In this document: positions 1,076 through 9,241 of the stretch, one piece after another | How positions within the stretch are numbered: the first letter of the stretch is position 1 | Layout of the letters: the number at the start of each line of letters is the position of its first letter | Source of the DNA: Petroclostridium xylanilyticum | GTDB lineage: Bacteria; Bacillota; Clostridia; SK-Y3 | DNA length: 64,000 nucleotides | Direction of reading: 5' to 3' | NCBI RefSeq assembly: GCF_002252565.1 | Contig: NZ_NPML01000019.1 | Span: forward strand, 434,001-498,000 | Position numbers and translations under genes: made by a program | Notes under the pieces: generated by a model | Told to the model about the DNA's origin: nothing | Database searches by the model: none | The model's input: the letters and a program-made list of their open reading frames with translations, nothing else

Positions 1076-2446
1076 TTAATTGACAATTGAGATAAGTTTC
1101 CACACCGGGCTGTTGATTGTCAGATCAATCTCTTTGGCAAAATTCACTGCTCCCTCGAATCCGGCAAGAGGGTGCTTCCGTTCATGGTTATGGTCACAAA
1201 ATGCGATCCCCAATTTATATGCAAGCGGTCTTTCCTTGACACCTCCGACAAGGATATCCGCACCTTTTTCCAAAATAAATTTTTCCAATTCGTAGGGATT
1301 GGTATCATCTAAAATGACAGTACCAACATCCGATATATTTTTAATCATTTCATAGTCTTCTTCCTTCCCGGTCTGAGTTCCTACCATTACTGTCTTCATA
1401 CCGAGGTCATTAAACTGTTTAATGAGAGAAATGGCTTTAAATCCGCCACCTACATATATTGCAGCCTTTTTGCCTTTTAATCTGCTGCGGTAATAATTCA
1501 GTTTGGGCTGCACTGTCTGTTCCTGTTCATAAATAAATTGTCTTGTCTTTTGAATAATTTCCTTATTTCCTATTGCTTGTGCAATCCTCATTAATGAAAG
1601 TTTAGTATCCTCTATTCCAAAAAAACTGATTTTGATAAAAGGAATATCATAAAGTCGTTCCATCTGTTTGGCAAGATAAGTCATAGAACCCGCACATTGT
1701 ACAATATTTAATGTTGCTTTTGGTGCCTGCATAATTTCTTCACATGTTCCGTCTCCTGTAATTTTTGAAACAACCTTCAGACCGATTTGTTTGAGATAAT
1801 TGATGAGAATCCACATCTCACCTGCCAGATTAAAGTCTCCCAAAAAGTTGATGCCTTCTATCTTTTCGTCAGGTTTATTTTCTCCCATTAAGTTGATGAG
1901 TGCATGACACGCAGCTTTGTAACCCATAGATTTATTTCCTGCAAACCCCGGAGATTTTACAGGAATGACCCTGATATTGTATTTCCTTTCTGCTGCTTTG
2001 CATACTGCTTCTATATCATCGCCGATAACTCCGATAATACAAGTGGCATAGACAAATATTACTTTTGGAGCTTTTTTGGCATCCTGACCAAAATTGTTCA
2101 TAATTTCATCAATTGCGCTGGAAAGTTTCTTTTCTCCTCCAAAAATAACATCCTGTTCCCTGATATCAGTGGAAAAACTGTTGCGGTATGTCTCCGCACC
2201 GCTTGACAAACTGCCTCGGATATCCCATGTATAGCTTGCACATCCTATGGGGCCATGGACAATATGAAAAGCATCAGTTATGGGATTTAAAACCACTCTT
2301 GCACCACAATAGACGCATGCCCTCTGGCTTACCGAGCCTGCAACGCTGTCTTTATCACATTTCAGTTTTCCTGCCTGTTCTTTGGAATTACAAATAATGA
2401 AATCTTGCCTTTCTTTAAGAATATCAACTGCAACGGCACTTTTCAT
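1076..2446 (-). CDS. nifE: NifE, nitrogenase FeMo-cofactor scaffold subunit
   Basis: NifE forms the NifEN scaffold complex for FeMo-cofactor assembly. The protein has the NifD/NifE family order: QRACVYCGA near the start, HGPIGCASY, an ATCIIGVIGDD segment around the third conserved Cys, and the NIVQCAGS motif in the middle. The open frame extends upstream to 2542, but the ATG at 2446 is chosen because it is preceded by a strong GGAGG at 2456-2460 and gives the family's usual N-terminus (MKSAVAVDILKERQ, about 456 residues). The extra 32 codons would lie inside an inverted-repeat region and look unlike NifE. The gene follows nifK after about 140 bases and precedes nifN by 15. Confidence 0.96.
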   Translation of the reverse strand: MKSAVAVDILKERQDFIICNSKEQAGKLKCDKDSVAGSVSQRACVYCGARVVLNPITDAFHIVHGPIGCASYTWDIRGSLSSGAETYRNSFSTDIREQDVIFGGEKKLSSAIDEIMNNFGQDAKKAPKVIFVYATCIIGVIGDDIEAVCKAAERKYNIRVIPVKSPGFAGNKSMGYKAACHALINLMGENKPDEKIEGINFLGDFNLAGEMWILINYLKQIGLKVVSKITGDGTCEEIMQAPKATLNIVQCAGSMTYLAKQMERLYDIPFIKISFFGIEDTKLSLMRIAQAIGNKEIIQKTRQFIYEQEQTVQPKLNYYRSRLKGKKAAIYVGGGFKAISLIKQFNDLGMKTVMVGTQTGKEEDYEMIKNISDVGTVILDDTNPYELEKFILEKGADILVGGVKERPLAYKLGIAFCDHNHERKHPLAGFEGAVNFAKEIDLTINSPVWKLISIVN

Positions 2447-2474
2447 ATTCCTCAGCCTCCTTGTTTTAATAATT

Positions 2475-2580
2475 GGGAGTGGGGAATGGAGTGAAAAAAC
2501 AGCTATTTTAAAATCCGGAGAGGGATTTGTATCATGCGTCATGTAGCTGGTATAAAGGGTTCTCCCTGCTCCCCACTCCC
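2475..2580. repeat. Inverted repeat between nifK and nifE
   Basis: Two perfect 11-base arms, GGGAGTGGGGA at 2475-2485 and its complement at 2570-2580, enclose about 84 bases in the nifK-nifE gap. In the transcript they could fold into a long-range stem. The arm motif (GGAGTGGGGA) resembles short interspersed palindromes found in many bacterial genomes, so this may be a small inserted element rather than a purpose-made regulatory site. It lies upstream of the chosen nifE start and ribosome binding site. Confidence 0.6.
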
Positions 2581-2588
2581 TGCTGTGA

Positions 2589-3950
2589 TTACATTACCAT
2601 CTCCATATCTTCATCCGCGCAATCCCTGTCCTGCCTGTCCATTAACGCATTGGCAATCATCTCAACCAGTCTCATTGCTCCTTTGTAACCTACGATAGGC
2701 ATGTAGGGATGTACATATCTGTCCATGATGGGGAATCCCACCCTTACAAACGGAATATCTTCAGCTCTGGCAATATATTTGCCGTGAGTGCCCCCCATGA
2801 GAAGATCAACAGGGTCATTTTTAATCCACTGATGCAGTTCAAATAAATCTCCCGCACTCTTTGCAATTCCGTCAATACCTGCTTGCTGAAGCATCTCGTT
2901 GGCTCTGGTAGTAAAGGCTTCTCCCGGGGTTCCGGTTACTACGTATTTAGGAATCATACCTAACCCAAGTACAAATTCTGTTAATCCCAGTACGGTATCC
3001 GGGTCACCAAATATAGCTACTTTCTTGCCATGATAGTACGGATGTGCATCTATCATGATGTCCACCAGTTGGCCTCTTTCTTCTTCCAGTGCATAGGGCA
3101 CTTCCTTATTTCCAACCTTCATGAGACTCATCACAAACCGGTCGGTTGCTTCAATGCCGATAGGCAGGTCCAATACCTTGAACGGTACCTTGCATTTTTT
3201 CTCCAGTTCCACCGCTCCGGCTTCCGAAGCAAATGCACCCAATGCCAGGGTTAAAATAGAGTTACCCGCATCTATGATATCCTCAATCTTTGTACCACCC
3301 TTAGGATACATTTCAAACTTTCCAGTCATGGGGGCATCCAGCACGCCGCTGGTATCAGGGAACATGATGTATTCAATTCCCATCAGTTCCATTATGCGCT
3401 TGATTTCCCTCATGTCACCCGGATTTACAAAACCGGGAATGACATTTACCTTGTCATTGATGAACCCATTACTGCTGGAAAGATAGCTTACCATTCCTTT
3501 TACCATATTGGAAAAACCTGTAATATGCGAACCTACGTAACTGGGTGTATTGGCATGTATTACATACTTTCCTTCGGGGATCTGTATCTGTTGGATAATT
3601 GAATAAAGGTCATCTCCTATGGTTTCTGTCAGGCAAGTGGTGTGTACCGCAATGATATCCGGATTGTATATCTCAAATACGTTTTTGATAGCGGTTTTAA
3701 GGTTGCTCCCGCCTCCGAAAACCGAAGCTCCTTCAGTAAATGAACTGGTAGAAGCCATTGCCGGATCTTTAAAATGTCTTGTTAAAAATGTCCTGTGATA
3801 AGAACAACATCCTTGGGAACCGTGACTGTGTGGCAGACACCTGTGAATACCAAGGGCTGCATACATCGCTCCGACGGGTTGACATGTTTTAGCAGGATTA
3901 ATCCTTAATGCGCTTCGTTCTGATACTTTTTTTGGTGTCAGGTCCAACAT
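2589..3950 (-). CDS. nifK: NifK, nitrogenase MoFe protein beta chain
   Basis: This is the beta subunit of the molybdenum-iron protein; it shares the P-cluster with NifD. At 453 residues it lacks the long N-terminal extension of proteobacterial NifK, as is usual for clostridial proteins. Visible P-cluster cysteine motifs are NPAKTCQPVGA near residue 23, GSQGCCSYHR near 48 and HTTCLTETIGDD near 106, with the TSSFTEGASVFGG segment between the last two. The C-terminal half keeps KVAIFGDPDTV and GGTHGKYIA. The start codon overlaps the nifD stop by one base (TAATG), which implies translational coupling and equal subunit output. No second nifK-like gene of the vanadium or iron-only type is present. 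Confidence 0.97.
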   Translation of the reverse strand: MLDLTPKKVSERSALRINPAKTCQPVGAMYAALGIHRCLPHSHGSQGCCSYHRTFLTRHFKDPAMASTSSFTEGASVFGGGSNLKTAIKNVFEIYNPDIIAVHTTCLTETIGDDLYSIIQQIQIPEGKYVIHANTPSYVGSHITGFSNMVKGMVSYLSSSNGFINDKVNVIPGFVNPGDMREIKRIMELMGIEYIMFPDTSGVLDAPMTGKFEMYPKGGTKIEDIIDAGNSILTLALGAFASEAGAVELEKKCKVPFKVLDLPIGIEATDRFVMSLMKVGNKEVPYALEEERGQLVDIMIDAHPYYHGKKVAIFGDPDTVLGLTEFVLGLGMIPKYVVTGTPGEAFTTRANEMLQQAGIDGIAKSAGDLFELHQWIKNDPVDLLMGGTHGKYIARAEDIPFVRVGFPIMDRYVHPYMPIVGYKGAMRLVEMIANALMDRQDRDCADEDMEMVM

Positions 3951-5551
3951 TACAATTCACCTCCAATAAATGTCCCTTCTAACAACGGTTCGGTCTTCCA
4001 CGGCGGCGTTGTATATTTCCAGGTAGGCGTATAGAGCCCCATGGTAATATCCCTGGCAAAGTTGACAGCACCCTTGAAACCGGCATAAGGTCCGCTGTAA
4101 TCGTAAGAATGCAATTGCCTGGACAATATTCCCGCCTTCTGTGCAACAAATTTATCTTTGATTCCCGAAAAGAATATATCGGGTTTTAATATTTTTAGGA
4201 ATTCTTCGGTCTCATAATGGTTCAAATCGTCTACCACAATACTGCCGTCGGGCATTTCCTTGATCATACCGGCATAATAATCAAGGGGTATTTCGTTTTT
4301 GAGCTGTTCATATCTTTCGGGAGTTAAAAATACGCGGTAATGTTTTTCATCTTTTTCAACTTTTAATTCTTCAATATTTTTACTGTCAGCATCTTCTTTT
4401 ATGAACGGTATTACCTCTCTGCCTTCATAATCATCTCTATGGGCAAACTCATAGCCTGCCAGGACCGTTTCCACCCCTAAGTCTTTTAGCAGTATTTGAT
4501 AATGATGGGCACGGGAGCCTCCTACAAATAATGCTGCTGTTTTCCCCCTCAGTTTTTCTTTATAGTAATCTATCGCATCCTGAATATCATCCAATTCATC
4601 AGCAATCACCTCTTCGGTACGCTGGATCAACTCCTCATCGCCAAAATATTTGGCCATCGCCCTTAAAGTTTCAATGGTACCTTTAACCCCAATAAAATTA
4701 GCTTTAATCCAGTGAGTGCCGTATTTAGTCTGTAACATTTCAGCAATGTAATTGATAGACCGATGGCACTGTACAATATTTAAATCCGCCTTGTGAGCAT
4801 TTTTTAAATCTCTGTAGCTTCCATCACCGGTCATAACTGAGACAATATCATATCCAATCCTTTTCAGCACTCTTGAAACTTCCCAGCCGTCTCCACCGAT
4901 ATTGTATTCTCCCAATATATTGATTGCATACTTTTTAGGTTCACGGTCTCCTGTACCGATAATATGCTTGATCAATCCATTATTGGCAATATGGTGTCCT
5001 CCCGATTGGCTTACACCTTTATACCCTTCACAGCTAAAAGCAACAACTTTTCTGCCGTAAAGTTTTTCAGCCTCTGCAGCAACAGCATGAATATCGTCTC
5101 CTATCAGACCTACCGGACAGGTGGAACAAATCATGACTGCTGCAGGGTCGAATATTTCAACAACTTCCTTAATGGCCTGCTTTAATTTTTTCTCTCCACC
5201 GAATACAATGTCGCTTTCCTGCATATCAGTACAAAAACAGTACTCCAGAAAACTCTTTGCATCTTCTTCTTTTCTTGCTTTATGCCTTCTGGTACCCCAA
5301 CTGTAGTATGCGCATCCTATCGGACCGTGGACGATAAGAGCCACGTCCTTCAGAGGTCCGAGAACAACCCCTTTACAGCCGGCAAAACAGCATCCCCTGT
5401 TGGTTATGATCCCGGGTATAGTTCTTGTGTTGGCCTGTATTTCATTTTTTTCACCGTCTTTTTTTACAATGACATGCTCTTTTCTGTTTTTATACACCCG
5501 TGCAGGATATTTTTCCAGCACTTTTTCCAATACTTGACCCATAACATTCAC
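3950..5551 (-). CDS. nifD: NifD, nitrogenase MoFe protein alpha chain
   Basis: This is the catalytic alpha subunit that holds the FeMo-cofactor and half of the P-cluster. P-cluster cysteines lie in NRGCCFAGC, GPIGCAYYSWG and CSTCPVGLIGDD. The cofactor ligands are the Cys of NIVQCHRSINY and the His of LHSYDYSGPYAGF near the C-terminus. At 533 residues it is longer than proteobacterial NifD because of a hydrophilic insertion of roughly 50 residues (about positions 380-435, rich in Glu, Lys and Asp), a known hallmark of clostridial NifD. There is no delta-subunit gene next to it, so it is a molybdenum enzyme. It is translationally coupled to nifK. Confidence 0.97.
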   Translation of the reverse strand: MNVMGQVLEKVLEKYPARVYKNRKEHVIVKKDGEKNEIQANTRTIPGIITNRGCCFAGCKGVVLGPLKDVALIVHGPIGCAYYSWGTRRHKARKEEDAKSFLEYCFCTDMQESDIVFGGEKKLKQAIKEVVEIFDPAAVMICSTCPVGLIGDDIHAVAAEAEKLYGRKVVAFSCEGYKGVSQSGGHHIANNGLIKHIIGTGDREPKKYAINILGEYNIGGDGWEVSRVLKRIGYDIVSVMTGDGSYRDLKNAHKADLNIVQCHRSINYIAEMLQTKYGTHWIKANFIGVKGTIETLRAMAKYFGDEELIQRTEEVIADELDDIQDAIDYYKEKLRGKTAALFVGGSRAHHYQILLKDLGVETVLAGYEFAHRDDYEGREVIPFIKEDADSKNIEELKVEKDEKHYRVFLTPERYEQLKNEIPLDYYAGMIKEMPDGSIVVDDLNHYETEEFLKILKPDIFFSGIKDKFVAQKAGILSRQLHSYDYSGPYAGFKGAVNFARDITMGLYTPTWKYTTPPWKTEPLLEGTFIGGEL

Positions 5552-5559
5552 CTCACTTG

Positions 5560-5940
5560 CTAGATAGCAGTTTCTCCTGTTTCTCCCGTCCTGACCCTTA
5601 TTACTTCCATAACAGGCAGTACGAATATTTTTCCGTCCCCCGGATTCCCGGTACTGTTGACACTCATAATTGTGTCAACCACTTTCTTTACATCTTCATC
5701 CTTAACAACCATAGTAAGCAGTCTTTTGGGAATAAGCCTGTGACCTTCTGAAAGCTCTTCTGCCAGCCGGGGGGACTCCATCACATTTTGTGAAATTACA
5801 TCTATTAATGAAAAATCAACCTTCTTTTTACCTCTTCCAAGTACTTTTCTGCAGGTGATGGAGGGAAAGCCTTCTTTTAGCAGTGCATCTTTTGTCTTAT
5901 TGATCATGTTGAGCCTGATAATAGCCATGATTTCTTTCAT
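5560..5940 (-). CDS. nifI2: NifI2, PII-family regulator of nitrogenase
   Basis: This is a 126-residue PII-like protein located between nifH and nifD. In methanogens, where the system is best studied, NifI1 and NifI2 form a complex that binds dinitrogenase directly and switches it off when ammonium appears; 2-oxoglutarate and ATP relieve this. The PII core is visible (MAIIRLNMINKTKDALLKEG, then VVKDEDVKKVVDTIM and DGKIFVLPVMEVIRVRTGE). The T-loop region is longer and different from that of GlnB, as expected for NifI2. It lies 17 bases after nifI1 and 8 bases before nifD in the same operon. Confidence 0.94.
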   Translation of the reverse strand: MKEIMAIIRLNMINKTKDALLKEGFPSITCRKVLGRGKKKVDFSLIDVISQNVMESPRLAEELSEGHRLIPKRLLTMVVKDEDVKKVVDTIMSVNSTGNPGDGKIFVLPVMEVIRVRTGETGETAI

Positions 5941-5957
5941 CCCGGTTTCCCCCTTTT

Positions 5958-6284
5958 TTATAATCCCTTGCTGGACGTACTGATGGTATATGCTTCTTCT
6001 ACAGGACTGACAAATATTTTACCATCCCCGAAAGCACCTTTTTCACCGGTCTTTGCATTTTTCATGATAATTTTCACTACATCCTCCTTATCCTCATCAT
6101 TTACAACCAGCAGAAGCATTTCTTTCGGAATCTCATCATAGTGGATATCTCCCACTTTCACACCTCTTTGTTTTCCTCTACCTACTACATCAATCTTTGT
6201 AACCGCCGGAAACCCTGCATCACACAATTCGGATAATACAACCCCTACCTTCTCCGGCCTGATAATTGCTCTAACCATTAACAT
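5958..6284 (-). CDS. nifI1: NifI1, PII-family regulator of nitrogenase
   Basis: This is a 108-residue PII-like protein directly after nifH, the usual place of nifI1 in archaea and clostridia. PII landmarks are MLMVRAIIRPEKVG at the start, the short T-loop containing GVKVGDIHYDEIPKEML, and the C-terminal GAFGDGKIFVSPVEEAYTI. With NifI2 it is expected to inhibit the MoFe protein when nitrogen becomes plentiful. A GGGAGG ribosome binding site precedes the ATG at 6284. There is no Tyr uridylylation site of the enterobacterial GlnB type. Confidence 0.94.
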   Translation of the reverse strand: MLMVRAIIRPEKVGVVLSELCDAGFPAVTKIDVVGRGKQRGVKVGDIHYDEIPKEMLLLVVNDEDKEDVVKIIMKNAKTGEKGAFGDGKIFVSPVEEAYTISTSSKGL

Positions 6285-6299
6285 ATTGTCAACCTCCCT

Positions 6300-7133
<834 letters not shown>

Positions 7134-7184: not shown

Positions 7185-7253
7185 AAAAAAGTCTTTTAAA
7201 GTATCCGTGTATCACACATCGCAGTGCCATACCCAACATCCTTTAAAAGACTT
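7185..7253 (-). terminator. Terminator-like hairpin in the nifH leader (candidate attenuator)
   Basis: A perfect 13-base inverted repeat (7189-7201 and 7241-7253) is followed on the minus strand by a run of six T at 7185-7190. This is the layout of an intrinsic terminator, lying between the predicted promoter and nifH. The 39-base loop holds a second hairpin (7209-7232) with two 9-base arms, one G-G mismatch and a six-base loop TGCGAT. Read-through would have to be controlled for nif to be expressed, so this is a candidate attenuator. No known riboswitch class was recognised. Confidence 0.75.
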
Positions 7254-7341
7254 CACCGTCACACAGAAAAACTTCCAAACGCCTTCCTGTGTTTAACTAT
7301 TCAATTGTAAGCTGCCGCAGCCATAAAATAATTATTGTCAT

Positions 7342-7388
7342 GTTATATAACTTGATTAAAGTATAGCATACAAATATTTTTTTTGCAA
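7342..7388 (-). promoter_or_regulatory. Predicted nif operon promoter and start-site palindrome
   Basis: On the minus strand a -35 TTGCAA (7383-7388) and a -10 TATACT (7360-7365) are separated by exactly 17 bases, with an extended TGC before the -10. The predicted start is near 7352, giving a leader of about 230 bases. The palindrome GTTATATAAC (7342-7351; near-palindromic over CAAGTTATATAACATG) falls on the start site and could be an operator. No -24/-12 sigma-54 promoter was found here, in keeping with clostridial nif genes. The rest of the gap (7389-7544) shows a weak TTGCTG/CAGCAA dyad at about 7495-7516 that could end the upstream gene. Confidence 0.6.
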
Positions 7389-7544: not shown

Positions 7545-8471
7545 TTATTCTCCATTATTGTCTGCACCTTTACGGGCTGACAGGATGGTTTGATACAAGA
7601 AAACCATGAGACTTTCAATAAACTGCTCTTTTTTATTTTCTATTGATTCCTGGGAAAAACAAATACTTTTAACCTTTTGAAGCCATTTGTCCACTTTATG
7701 TTGGGAACATCTGCTGCACTCTTCAATATATTCTCGGGGAATTTTTTCTTCTTTTAGCTTTTCTTCGATTTCCTTAAATCCTAACTCTATCTCGGCCATA
7801 ATTTTATAGTATATGAGTTCATTATTATCTGCATCTTTTTCCCGGAGTATAATATTGACCTGCTGTGCTACACTTTTCCATACTTCAAACTTGATTTCCA
7901 ATAACCTTTTTATATATTGATCATTAAAAGTAGGTATCTGATATTTTATCAGCTCTTCAATATCTGAAAGGTTGTCCTCACTATTTCCAGGTATGTCGAT
8001 TCTTCCCAATCCAGGTATTTTTAAATGAGTTAATAATAACGACATAAAGTTCTTAGGTATTGGTACCCCAAGAAGCGTTAGGTTTTCTAAAATGCTTACT
8101 GTTTCTGTAACTTCAAGAAAGGCCACCATTATTTGGGATAACAAAGTTGTTTGAACTAGCGTTAAAATACCTATCTCTAGTAACCTGACTGTCATGATGG
8201 ATACTGAATAAGTAACAACTTTTTTAATAAATTTGGAAAGACCCTTGCTGTTAAATCTTTTATTTTTTATGGCTACTGCCATCCCTGTAAGAGTATCAAT
8301 AACAACCAGCACCAATAATATTATATAAGATGTTTCAATACCTCCTAAAAATCTTGATATAATTCCAATAACACCCGAAATACAGAATACCTCTATTAAA
8401 TAATTAGTCCTGTTCATCTCCCTATCCCCAATACATTTATAAAATATCAAAGGCATATTTATCATTAACAT
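7545..8471 (-). CDS. Holin-like membrane protein with a long soluble C-terminus
   Basis: The N-terminal half matches the phage holin / toxin-secretion family (Phage_holin_4 type): about three hydrophobic segments, with the family motif VVIDTLTGMAVAIKNKRFNSKG followed by the FIKKVVTYS segment. After about residue 150 there is a hydrophilic, Glu/Lys-rich tail of roughly 155 residues, which ordinary holins of about 130-150 residues do not have. No lysin or phage structural gene is nearby, so a role in phage lysis is not supported. The start is uncertain: the ATG at 8471 has a GAGG a few bases upstream, while the ATG at 8417 (MNRTNYLIEV) gives a more typical holin N-terminus after GGGGAT. Confidence 0.65.
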   Translation of the reverse strand: MLMINMPLIFYKCIGDREMNRTNYLIEVFCISGVIGIISRFLGGIETSYIILLVLVVIDTLTGMAVAIKNKRFNSKGLSKFIKKVVTYSVSIMTVRLLEIGILTLVQTTLLSQIMVAFLEVTETVSILENLTLLGVPIPKNFMSLLLTHLKIPGLGRIDIPGNSEDNLSDIEELIKYQIPTFNDQYIKRLLEIKFEVWKSVAQQVNIILREKDADNNELIYYKIMAEIELGFKEIEEKLKEEKIPREYIEECSRCSQHKVDKWLQKVKSICFSQESIENKKEQFIESLMVFLYQTILSARKGADNNGE

Positions 8472-8671: not shown

Positions 8672-9241
8672 ATGAATAAAATTGAAATCATTGAAAAAAT
8701 CGAAGAAAATCCAATCATTGCGGCAATCAGGAAAGAAGAGGATGTAGACATTGCTGTTACTTCCCAGGTAACTACTGTTTTTCTACTTCATGCAGATATT
8801 TTTAATATAAAGTCGCTTGTCGACCGGGTAAAAAACGGTAATAAAAGCGTTTTCATCCACATTGATTTTCTAGAAGGGATTGGAAGAGATTATAAAGCTA
8901 TTGATTATATCAGTAAGGTAATTGGTCCTGACGGTATTATCAGCACTAAAAGCAGCAGTATCAAATACGCACAGGAAAAAGGCATATTTACAATACAGCG
9001 TTTTTTCCTGATAGACAGCCTATCCTATGAAACTACTATTAAAACTGTCCAATCCATACAGCCGGATATGATTGAAATTATGCCCGGTGTAATGCCGGGA
9101 ATTATAAAGCGCATAAACTGCCAGCTATCCTGCCCCGTCATTGCAGGAGGACTGATAGACAGTAAAGAAGATATTATTGAAATACTAAAGGCGGGAGCCC
9201 TGGGAGCTTCTACAGGGAAGAAAGAATTGTGGATATTATAA
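8672..9241 (+). CDS. glpP: GlpP-family glycerol-3-phosphate responsive antiterminator
   Basis: This 189-residue protein has the GlpP pattern: NPIIAAIRKEED at the start, FIHIDFLEGIGRD in the middle, then GIISTKSS, a QRFFLIDS segment, IEIMPGVMPG and PVIAGGLI near the end. In Bacillus subtilis GlpP binds the leader RNA of glpD/glpFK in the presence of glycerol-3-phosphate and prevents termination. No glp structural gene is adjacent in this window, so the targets are not visible. A GAAAGG ribosome binding site lies upstream of the ATG. It is divergent from the holin-like gene. Confidence 0.9.
   Translation: MNKIEIIEKIEENPIIAAIRKEEDVDIAVTSQVTTVFLLHADIFNIKSLVDRVKNGNKSVFIHIDFLEGIGRDYKAIDYISKVIGPDGIISTKSSSIKYAQEKGIFTIQRFFLIDSLSYETTIKTVQSIQPDMIEIMPGVMPGIIKRINCQLSCPVIAGGLIDSKEDIIEILKAGALGASTGKKELWIL

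Follow-up and report, generated by a model that had tools for sequence, protein, structure and literature searches.

The leader of the nif operon in Petroclostridium xylanilyticum most probably acts as a transcription-attenuation switch controlled by NitR, the glnA-linked protein that is the only ANTAR protein detected in this genome; on comparative sequence evidence, this reading is given a probability of about 0.84. The leader contains an intrinsic terminator between promoter and nifH, and a small hexaloop hairpin of the ANTAR type (P2) whose 3' strand is also the 5' arm of that terminator. All coordinates below refer to the window, that is, the whole analysed stretch of 64,000 nucleotides, whose minus strand carries the leader and the nif genes.

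Organization of the nif Leader

The first gene of the controlled operon is nifH (6300–7121, minus strand; NCBIfam TIGR01287, E 1.6e-137). The rest of the operon present in the window (1076–6284, minus strand), assigned by NCBIfam matches and ORF order, comprises two P-II-like genes in the nifI1/nifI2 position, nifD, nifK, and nifE. The minus-strand sequence ahead of nifH comprises, in this order, TTGCAA-17-TATACT, a palindrome, a 12-bp hairpin, and the terminator. The promoter (7360–7388, minus strand) is of the sigma-70 type, with a -35 element TTGCAA at 7388–7383, a 17-nt spacer, and a -10 element TATACT at 7365–7360, and it is kept as TTGCAA/T-17-TATACT or TAAAGT in L003 and L005, the nearest relatives, which belong to the same family in the genome collection. 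From the promoter position, transcription is expected to start at ~7353, resulting in a leader of 232 nt up to the nifH ATG at 7121, in agreement with the first-pass annotation of this DNA, which had read the same promoter and a leader of about 230 bases.

The expected start is covered by a perfect palindrome, GTTATATAAC (7342–7351, minus strand; approximately +2 to +11), which is kept in this genome, L003, and L005. The sequence AAGTTATATAAC occurs at nif in all three family genomes and just once elsewhere, in P. xylanilyticum itself (C11:217655), where it falls within what looks like a coding frame and is regarded as a chance occurrence. The palindrome is thus a possible nif-specific operator of a putative repressor.

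The terminator (7185–7253, minus strand), supported by folding and by shuffled controls, consists of a 13-bp stem whose arms, AAGTCTTTTAAAG (7253–7241) and CTTTAAAAGACTT (7201–7189), are perfectly complementary, a 39-nt loop (7240–7202), and a T-run (7190–7185). The 83-nt hairpin region has a folding energy of -29.2 kcal/mol (z = -6.8), which none of 200 shuffled sequences equalled, and the whole leader (244 nt folded) is also more stable than its shuffles (z = -5.4). The earlier description of a 13-base stem with a 39-base loop, followed by six T, stands except for one detail, as the first two T already lie within the stem. Conservation of the stem and T-run in close relatives had been set as a test of that description, and the terminator is indeed present before nifH in both L003 and L005.

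Within the terminator loop, a nested hairpin (7209–7232, minus strand) is predicted, as described before, to close CAC[UGCGAU]GUG with a hexaloop at 7223–7218. It is also found in L003 and L005, so that the three genomes share CAC[UNNGNU]GUG, while the stem letters below differ; three sequences are, however, too few to prove that this loop is selected. The nested hairpin may do no more than draw the two arms of the terminator together, or it may be an extra NitR site. As the main ANTAR target, UGCGAU was rejected, because its position does not allow it to compete with the terminator and no counterpart was found outside the family. No Rfam family matched the window at the gathering score, and with relaxed limits only chance-level matches appeared, none of them credible.

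A Hexaloop at the Base of the Terminator

The first-pass annotation had pointed to this nested TGCGAT loop as a candidate, if off-consensus, ANTAR target, but it overlooked a better one at the terminator base. The hairpin GAC[GGUGAA]GUC (P2; 7249–7260, minus strand), proposed here as the antiterminator, is a class-wide element with a covarying stem and overlaps the terminator 5' arm. It holds a 3-bp stem and a six-nucleotide loop, GGUGAA, at 7257–7252. Like known ANTAR targets, it has a G at loop position 4 (G7254) and a C-G closing pair (C7258–G7251), a feature described as conserved among eut leaders, whereas loop position 1 is a G (G7257) and not the canonical A. Bases 7253–7249 belong both to the 3' strand of P2 and to the 5' arm of the terminator, and consequently the two structures are mutually exclusive. 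With the covariance model R1, described below, P2 scores 31 bits, although its own sequence was part of the training set.

The G at position 1 is plausibly a tolerated variant, since the structure of EutV bound to RNA shows no specific protein contact to A1 (PMC8934654), and the L005 ortholog of the loop, AGUGAA, has both A1 and G4. The view that the departure from known targets calls for a variant or for another mechanism is best answered by a variant, as A or G is found at position 1 across nifH leaders.

Immediately upstream of P2, and abutting it with no linker, a further hairpin is predicted at the position of an ANTAR P1 element (7261–7292, minus strand; 12 bp, with the 8-nt loop GUUUGGAA). 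Its stem is maintained by two double changes across this genome, L003, and L005. In these family genomes, its loops have 7 to 8 nt with a common UUG and are not strict hexaloops; no canonical P1 hexaloop was found upstream of P2 in the window leader. The terminator forms when the full leader segment is folded (-44 kcal/mol for the joint structure), while an RNA ending at 7249 is predicted to fold as the upstream hairpin and P2 in an end-to-end stack. P2 would thus form before the terminator 3' arm is made, and its capture by NitR during this kinetic window would be possible.

Hexaloop–Terminators before nifH in Other Genomes

Two sources supplied the nifH leaders compared, namely one class search (27 loci) and GTDB genomes (80 named loci), with 103 leaders entering the counts. 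The pattern GAC[RNNGNN]GUC, together with the variants GGC..GCC, AGC..GCU, AAC..GUU, and CAC..GUG, recurs immediately before and within their terminators, and the 3' strand of the recurrent hexaloop is the start of the terminator stem. When all hairpins of at least 3 bp overlapping terminator 5' arms were counted with loop letters ignored, G4 was present in 75 of 102 hexaloops. Hexaloops with both R1 and G4 made up 67/102 on terminator 5' arms vs. 109/954 at other places in these leaders (p about 1e-32). The stricter element (stem of at least 3 bp, C-G closure, and an R-N-N-G-N-N loop over a terminator) was counted 54 times, in 32 of the 103 leaders, and 0–1 times in each of ten dinucleotide-shuffled sets. 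Loop positions 2, 3, 5, and 6, which were unselected, are variable, whereas a purine predominates at position 1 (A in 30 and G in 17 of the 47 sites chosen for R1/G4). The closing pair, which was not a selection criterion, is C-G in 45 of these 47 sites.

The P2 stem also shows covariation across 41 distinct sequences, with 47 double-change cells vs. 24 in shuffles and a score of 0.49 vs. 0.27, to be read with the caveat that the sites were picked for pairing at the inner three positions; sliding the alignment abolishes the signal. The alignment of nifH leaders proposed earlier as a check for compensatory changes thus finds them in P2, in addition to the two double changes of the upstream stem. 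RNAalifold, applied to the mixed terminator alignment, gave the hexaloop stem alone, and the terminator register of model R1 was set from pair counts. A clear P1 hexaloop was not found in most of the nifH leaders compared, and is present in the Peptococcaceae-type leaders L077 and L088. As approximately one third of nifH leaders carry the element, and ANTAR sites at nitrogenase genes were already predicted in 2012 (PMC3369931), the first-pass annotation's view of attenuation as unusual for a nif operon does not hold.

The distribution of these terminators also bears on other explanations of the hairpins. One of them is that the hairpin ends transcription of the upstream holin-like gene (7545–8471, minus strand), with nif regulated at the promoter only. 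The stop codon of this gene does lie upstream of the stem on the same strand, and the palindrome overlaps the nif start region. However, the nif promoter sits between the gene and the hairpin, and L005 keeps both terminator and leader although its upstream gene is aminotransferase-like; the terminator is conserved along with nifH, and not with the upstream gene. Moreover, Acetobacterium carries up to three hexaloop–terminators in tandem immediately before nifH, and a terminator of the upstream gene would leave the hexaloop overlap unexplained, all of which makes this explanation very unlikely. The holin-family membrane protein (PF05105) encoded at 7545–8471 has a long extra C-terminal part, and a related gene is found at the same place in L175.

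An mRNA can be protected by strong stem-loops in its 5' leader, and the conserved 12-bp upstream hairpin would fit a role of the hairpins in stabilising the 5' end of the nif mRNA or in marking a processing site, with no attenuation involved. Stabilisation would nevertheless need neither a T-run right after the stem nor an R1/G4 hexaloop overlap, both of which recur in unrelated leaders and before glnA, and this role is similarly improbable.

NitR, the Candidate Regulator

In favour of attenuation by an ANTAR protein, the gene set of this genome contains a suitable candidate regulator. The genome search suggested by the first-pass annotation, which had guessed at a glnA-linked NitR, detected a single ANTAR gene (PF03861, E 2.1e-23), nitR, located in a glnA-nitR-PII-amtB cluster. 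Like EutV, NitR is a REC-ANTAR protein, and its alignment with EutV (6WSH/6WW6) shows that the equivalents of the RNA-contact residues Arg142, Lys143, Lys149, Glu160, Tyr164, and Met172 are kept, with the exception of Lys147, which is replaced by Arg. Unlike EutV, the NitR receiver (L111:4473-5048) holds an Asn at the position of the phospho-acceptor Asp54, and Asn-Asn where the acidic pocket is expected. The phospho-acceptor Asp is also missing from most glnA-linked ANTAR relatives. The loss of this residue suggests that NitR activity is more likely to be set by protein contact or a ligand than by phosphorylation.

An ANTAR gene was detected in 22 of the 23 nifH genomes searched, often adjoining a glutamine synthetase gene. 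None was found in G118, a nifH genome with P2-like sites, possibly due to its assembly in ~190 contigs. Many glnA-linked ANTAR proteins (L118, L119, L123, L125, and others) carry a His where EutV has the Tyr that stacks on G4 (EAH/QAH vs. EAY), and the nifH leaders of genomes with such His-type proteins still have G4. In G221 (L134/L013), nifH is directly preceded by an ANTAR gene, and the nifH leader holds no clear R1/G4 hexaloop–terminator.

The weakest alternative, that the terminator responds to a different antiterminator or to a ligand-binding RNA, draws on a GlpP-family gene (PF04309, E 1.4e-66; 8672–9241, plus strand) ~1.5 kb upstream of nifH on the opposite strand. GlpP, a glycerol-3-phosphate antiterminator, was rejected as the regulator because its gene is not conserved beside nif: L175 and L176, the two relatives that share the leader, lack it at the equivalent position. 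The window also lacks an Rfam family match, and the conserved element is an ANTAR hexaloop, leaving this alternative the least probable of all. The GlpP-family gene adjoins an aspartokinase-like gene.

Other Candidate Sites

The regulon of the genome was sought both by place and with R1, a covariance model trained on nifH leaders only. Outside its training set, R1 matches the leader of the genome's own glnA, GGAC[AACGAC]GUUC, and that of its GSIII gene (glnN), GAAAC[AAUGGC]GUUUC, as well as the leaders of glnA in five further genomes. In the whole-genome search, the GSIII site scores poorly (E about 0.5) and is outranked by one match with no hexaloop. The R1 match at C7:53633 in this genome combines a terminator with no hexaloop and is regarded as fortuitous. 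Read by eye, the PII leader contains GCUC[AUCGUU]GAGC followed by GGC[UAAGGC]GCC over a terminator; since the latter is kept in both relatives, a U at position 1 also seems to be tolerated in the family.

In a more distant context, G093 holds ANTAR-like hexaloop–terminators before a corrinoid protein/trimethylamine methyltransferase-like operon and before an amino acid permease-like gene, and its iron alcohol dehydrogenase-like gene is preceded by a terminator with no R1/G4 hexaloop (L151, L152, L153).

Proposed Mechanism

The first-pass annotation had placed a terminator between promoter and nifH and had raised ANTAR antitermination as a precedent; comparative evidence supports both. By default, the nascent leader would fold as the terminator, and transcription would end short of nifH, approximately 165 nt from its start. 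When nitrogen is scarce, NitR would bind P2, GAC[GGUGAA]GUC, perhaps aided by the hairpin stacked just upstream. As P2 takes the 5' arm of the terminator, the latter could not form, and the polymerase would read into nifH-nifI1-nifI2-nifDKE. NitR is also expected to regulate its own glnA-nitR-PII-amtB cluster and glnN through similar elements, and its activity may be set by contact with a protein, such as feedback-inhibited glutamine synthetase or PII, or by a ligand. Against this mechanism, P2 has just 3 bp, and the protein must win against a very stable terminator.

A more tentative proposal, which we regard as rather doubtful, is that NitR reads several hexaloops per leader (the upstream hairpin, P2, and the nested CAC[UNNGNU]GUG) and is switched by contact with glutamine synthetase or PII and not by phosphorylation. 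If so, the nested hexaloop would be a site inside the terminator, NitR would act on the forming terminator or be held by it, and nitrogenase expression would be tied directly to glutamine status through RNA.

Relation to Known ANTAR Systems

The arrangement of P2 is known from other ANTAR targets, in which a G4 hexaloop closed by a C-G pair competes with a terminator (PMC3369931, PMC8934654). The minimal target has been redefined as one hexaloop, although for eut both hexaloops are contacted in turn (PMC8934654). Like the eut target of EutV/EutW from Enterococcus faecalis, the element in the window has a G4 hexaloop, a C-G closure with A-U below, and a P2 3' strand that is the terminator 5' arm. 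Unlike eut, it holds G1 (A or G across the group), lacks a canonical P1 hexaloop, and its target is nif.

Nitrogen-related ANTAR systems provide closer functional parallels. GnfR of the GnfK/GnfR system from Geobacter sulfurreducens is an ANTAR response regulator acting on nif leaders, through two-component phosphorylation and a sigma-54 cascade; in contrast, P. xylanilyticum combines a pseudo-receiver NitR with a sigma-70-type promoter. NasR from Klebsiella oxytoca senses nitrate through its NIT domain. Like the system proposed here, NasR and the nasF leader join an ANTAR protein and a hexaloop (A1/G4) in the attenuation of a nitrogen operon (PMC3369931), although their target is the assimilatory nitrate operon. 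The 2012 predictions in Pelobacter carbinolicus and Desulfotomaculum acetoxidans also place ANTAR target RNAs at nitrogenase and other nitrogen-metabolism genes (PMC3369931). These followed a dual-hexaloop A1/G4 model, whereas most nifH leaders of the present comparison show just one hexaloop, which overlaps the terminator and begins with A or G.

A literature search lacking most subscription journals found no description of ANTAR control for clostridial nif operons, and what it found linking ANTAR proteins to nitrogenase consists of predictions only. ANTAR control of nitrogenase genes is therefore of a known kind, and the system described here is a variant of a known mechanism, distinguished by A or G at loop position 1, the lack of a canonical P1, and, within the terminator loop, an additional U1/G4 hexaloop that is conserved.

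Implications

To our knowledge, the control of nif genes in clostridial diazotrophs is poorly understood. A glutamine-synthetase-linked ANTAR protein releasing pre-nifH terminators offers a testable answer for many Clostridia and Negativicutes. It also widens the definition of ANTAR targets to a single hexaloop with a purine at position 1. This broader definition would be of use in detecting regulons that have been missed and in engineering nitrogen fixation that is insensitive to ammonium.
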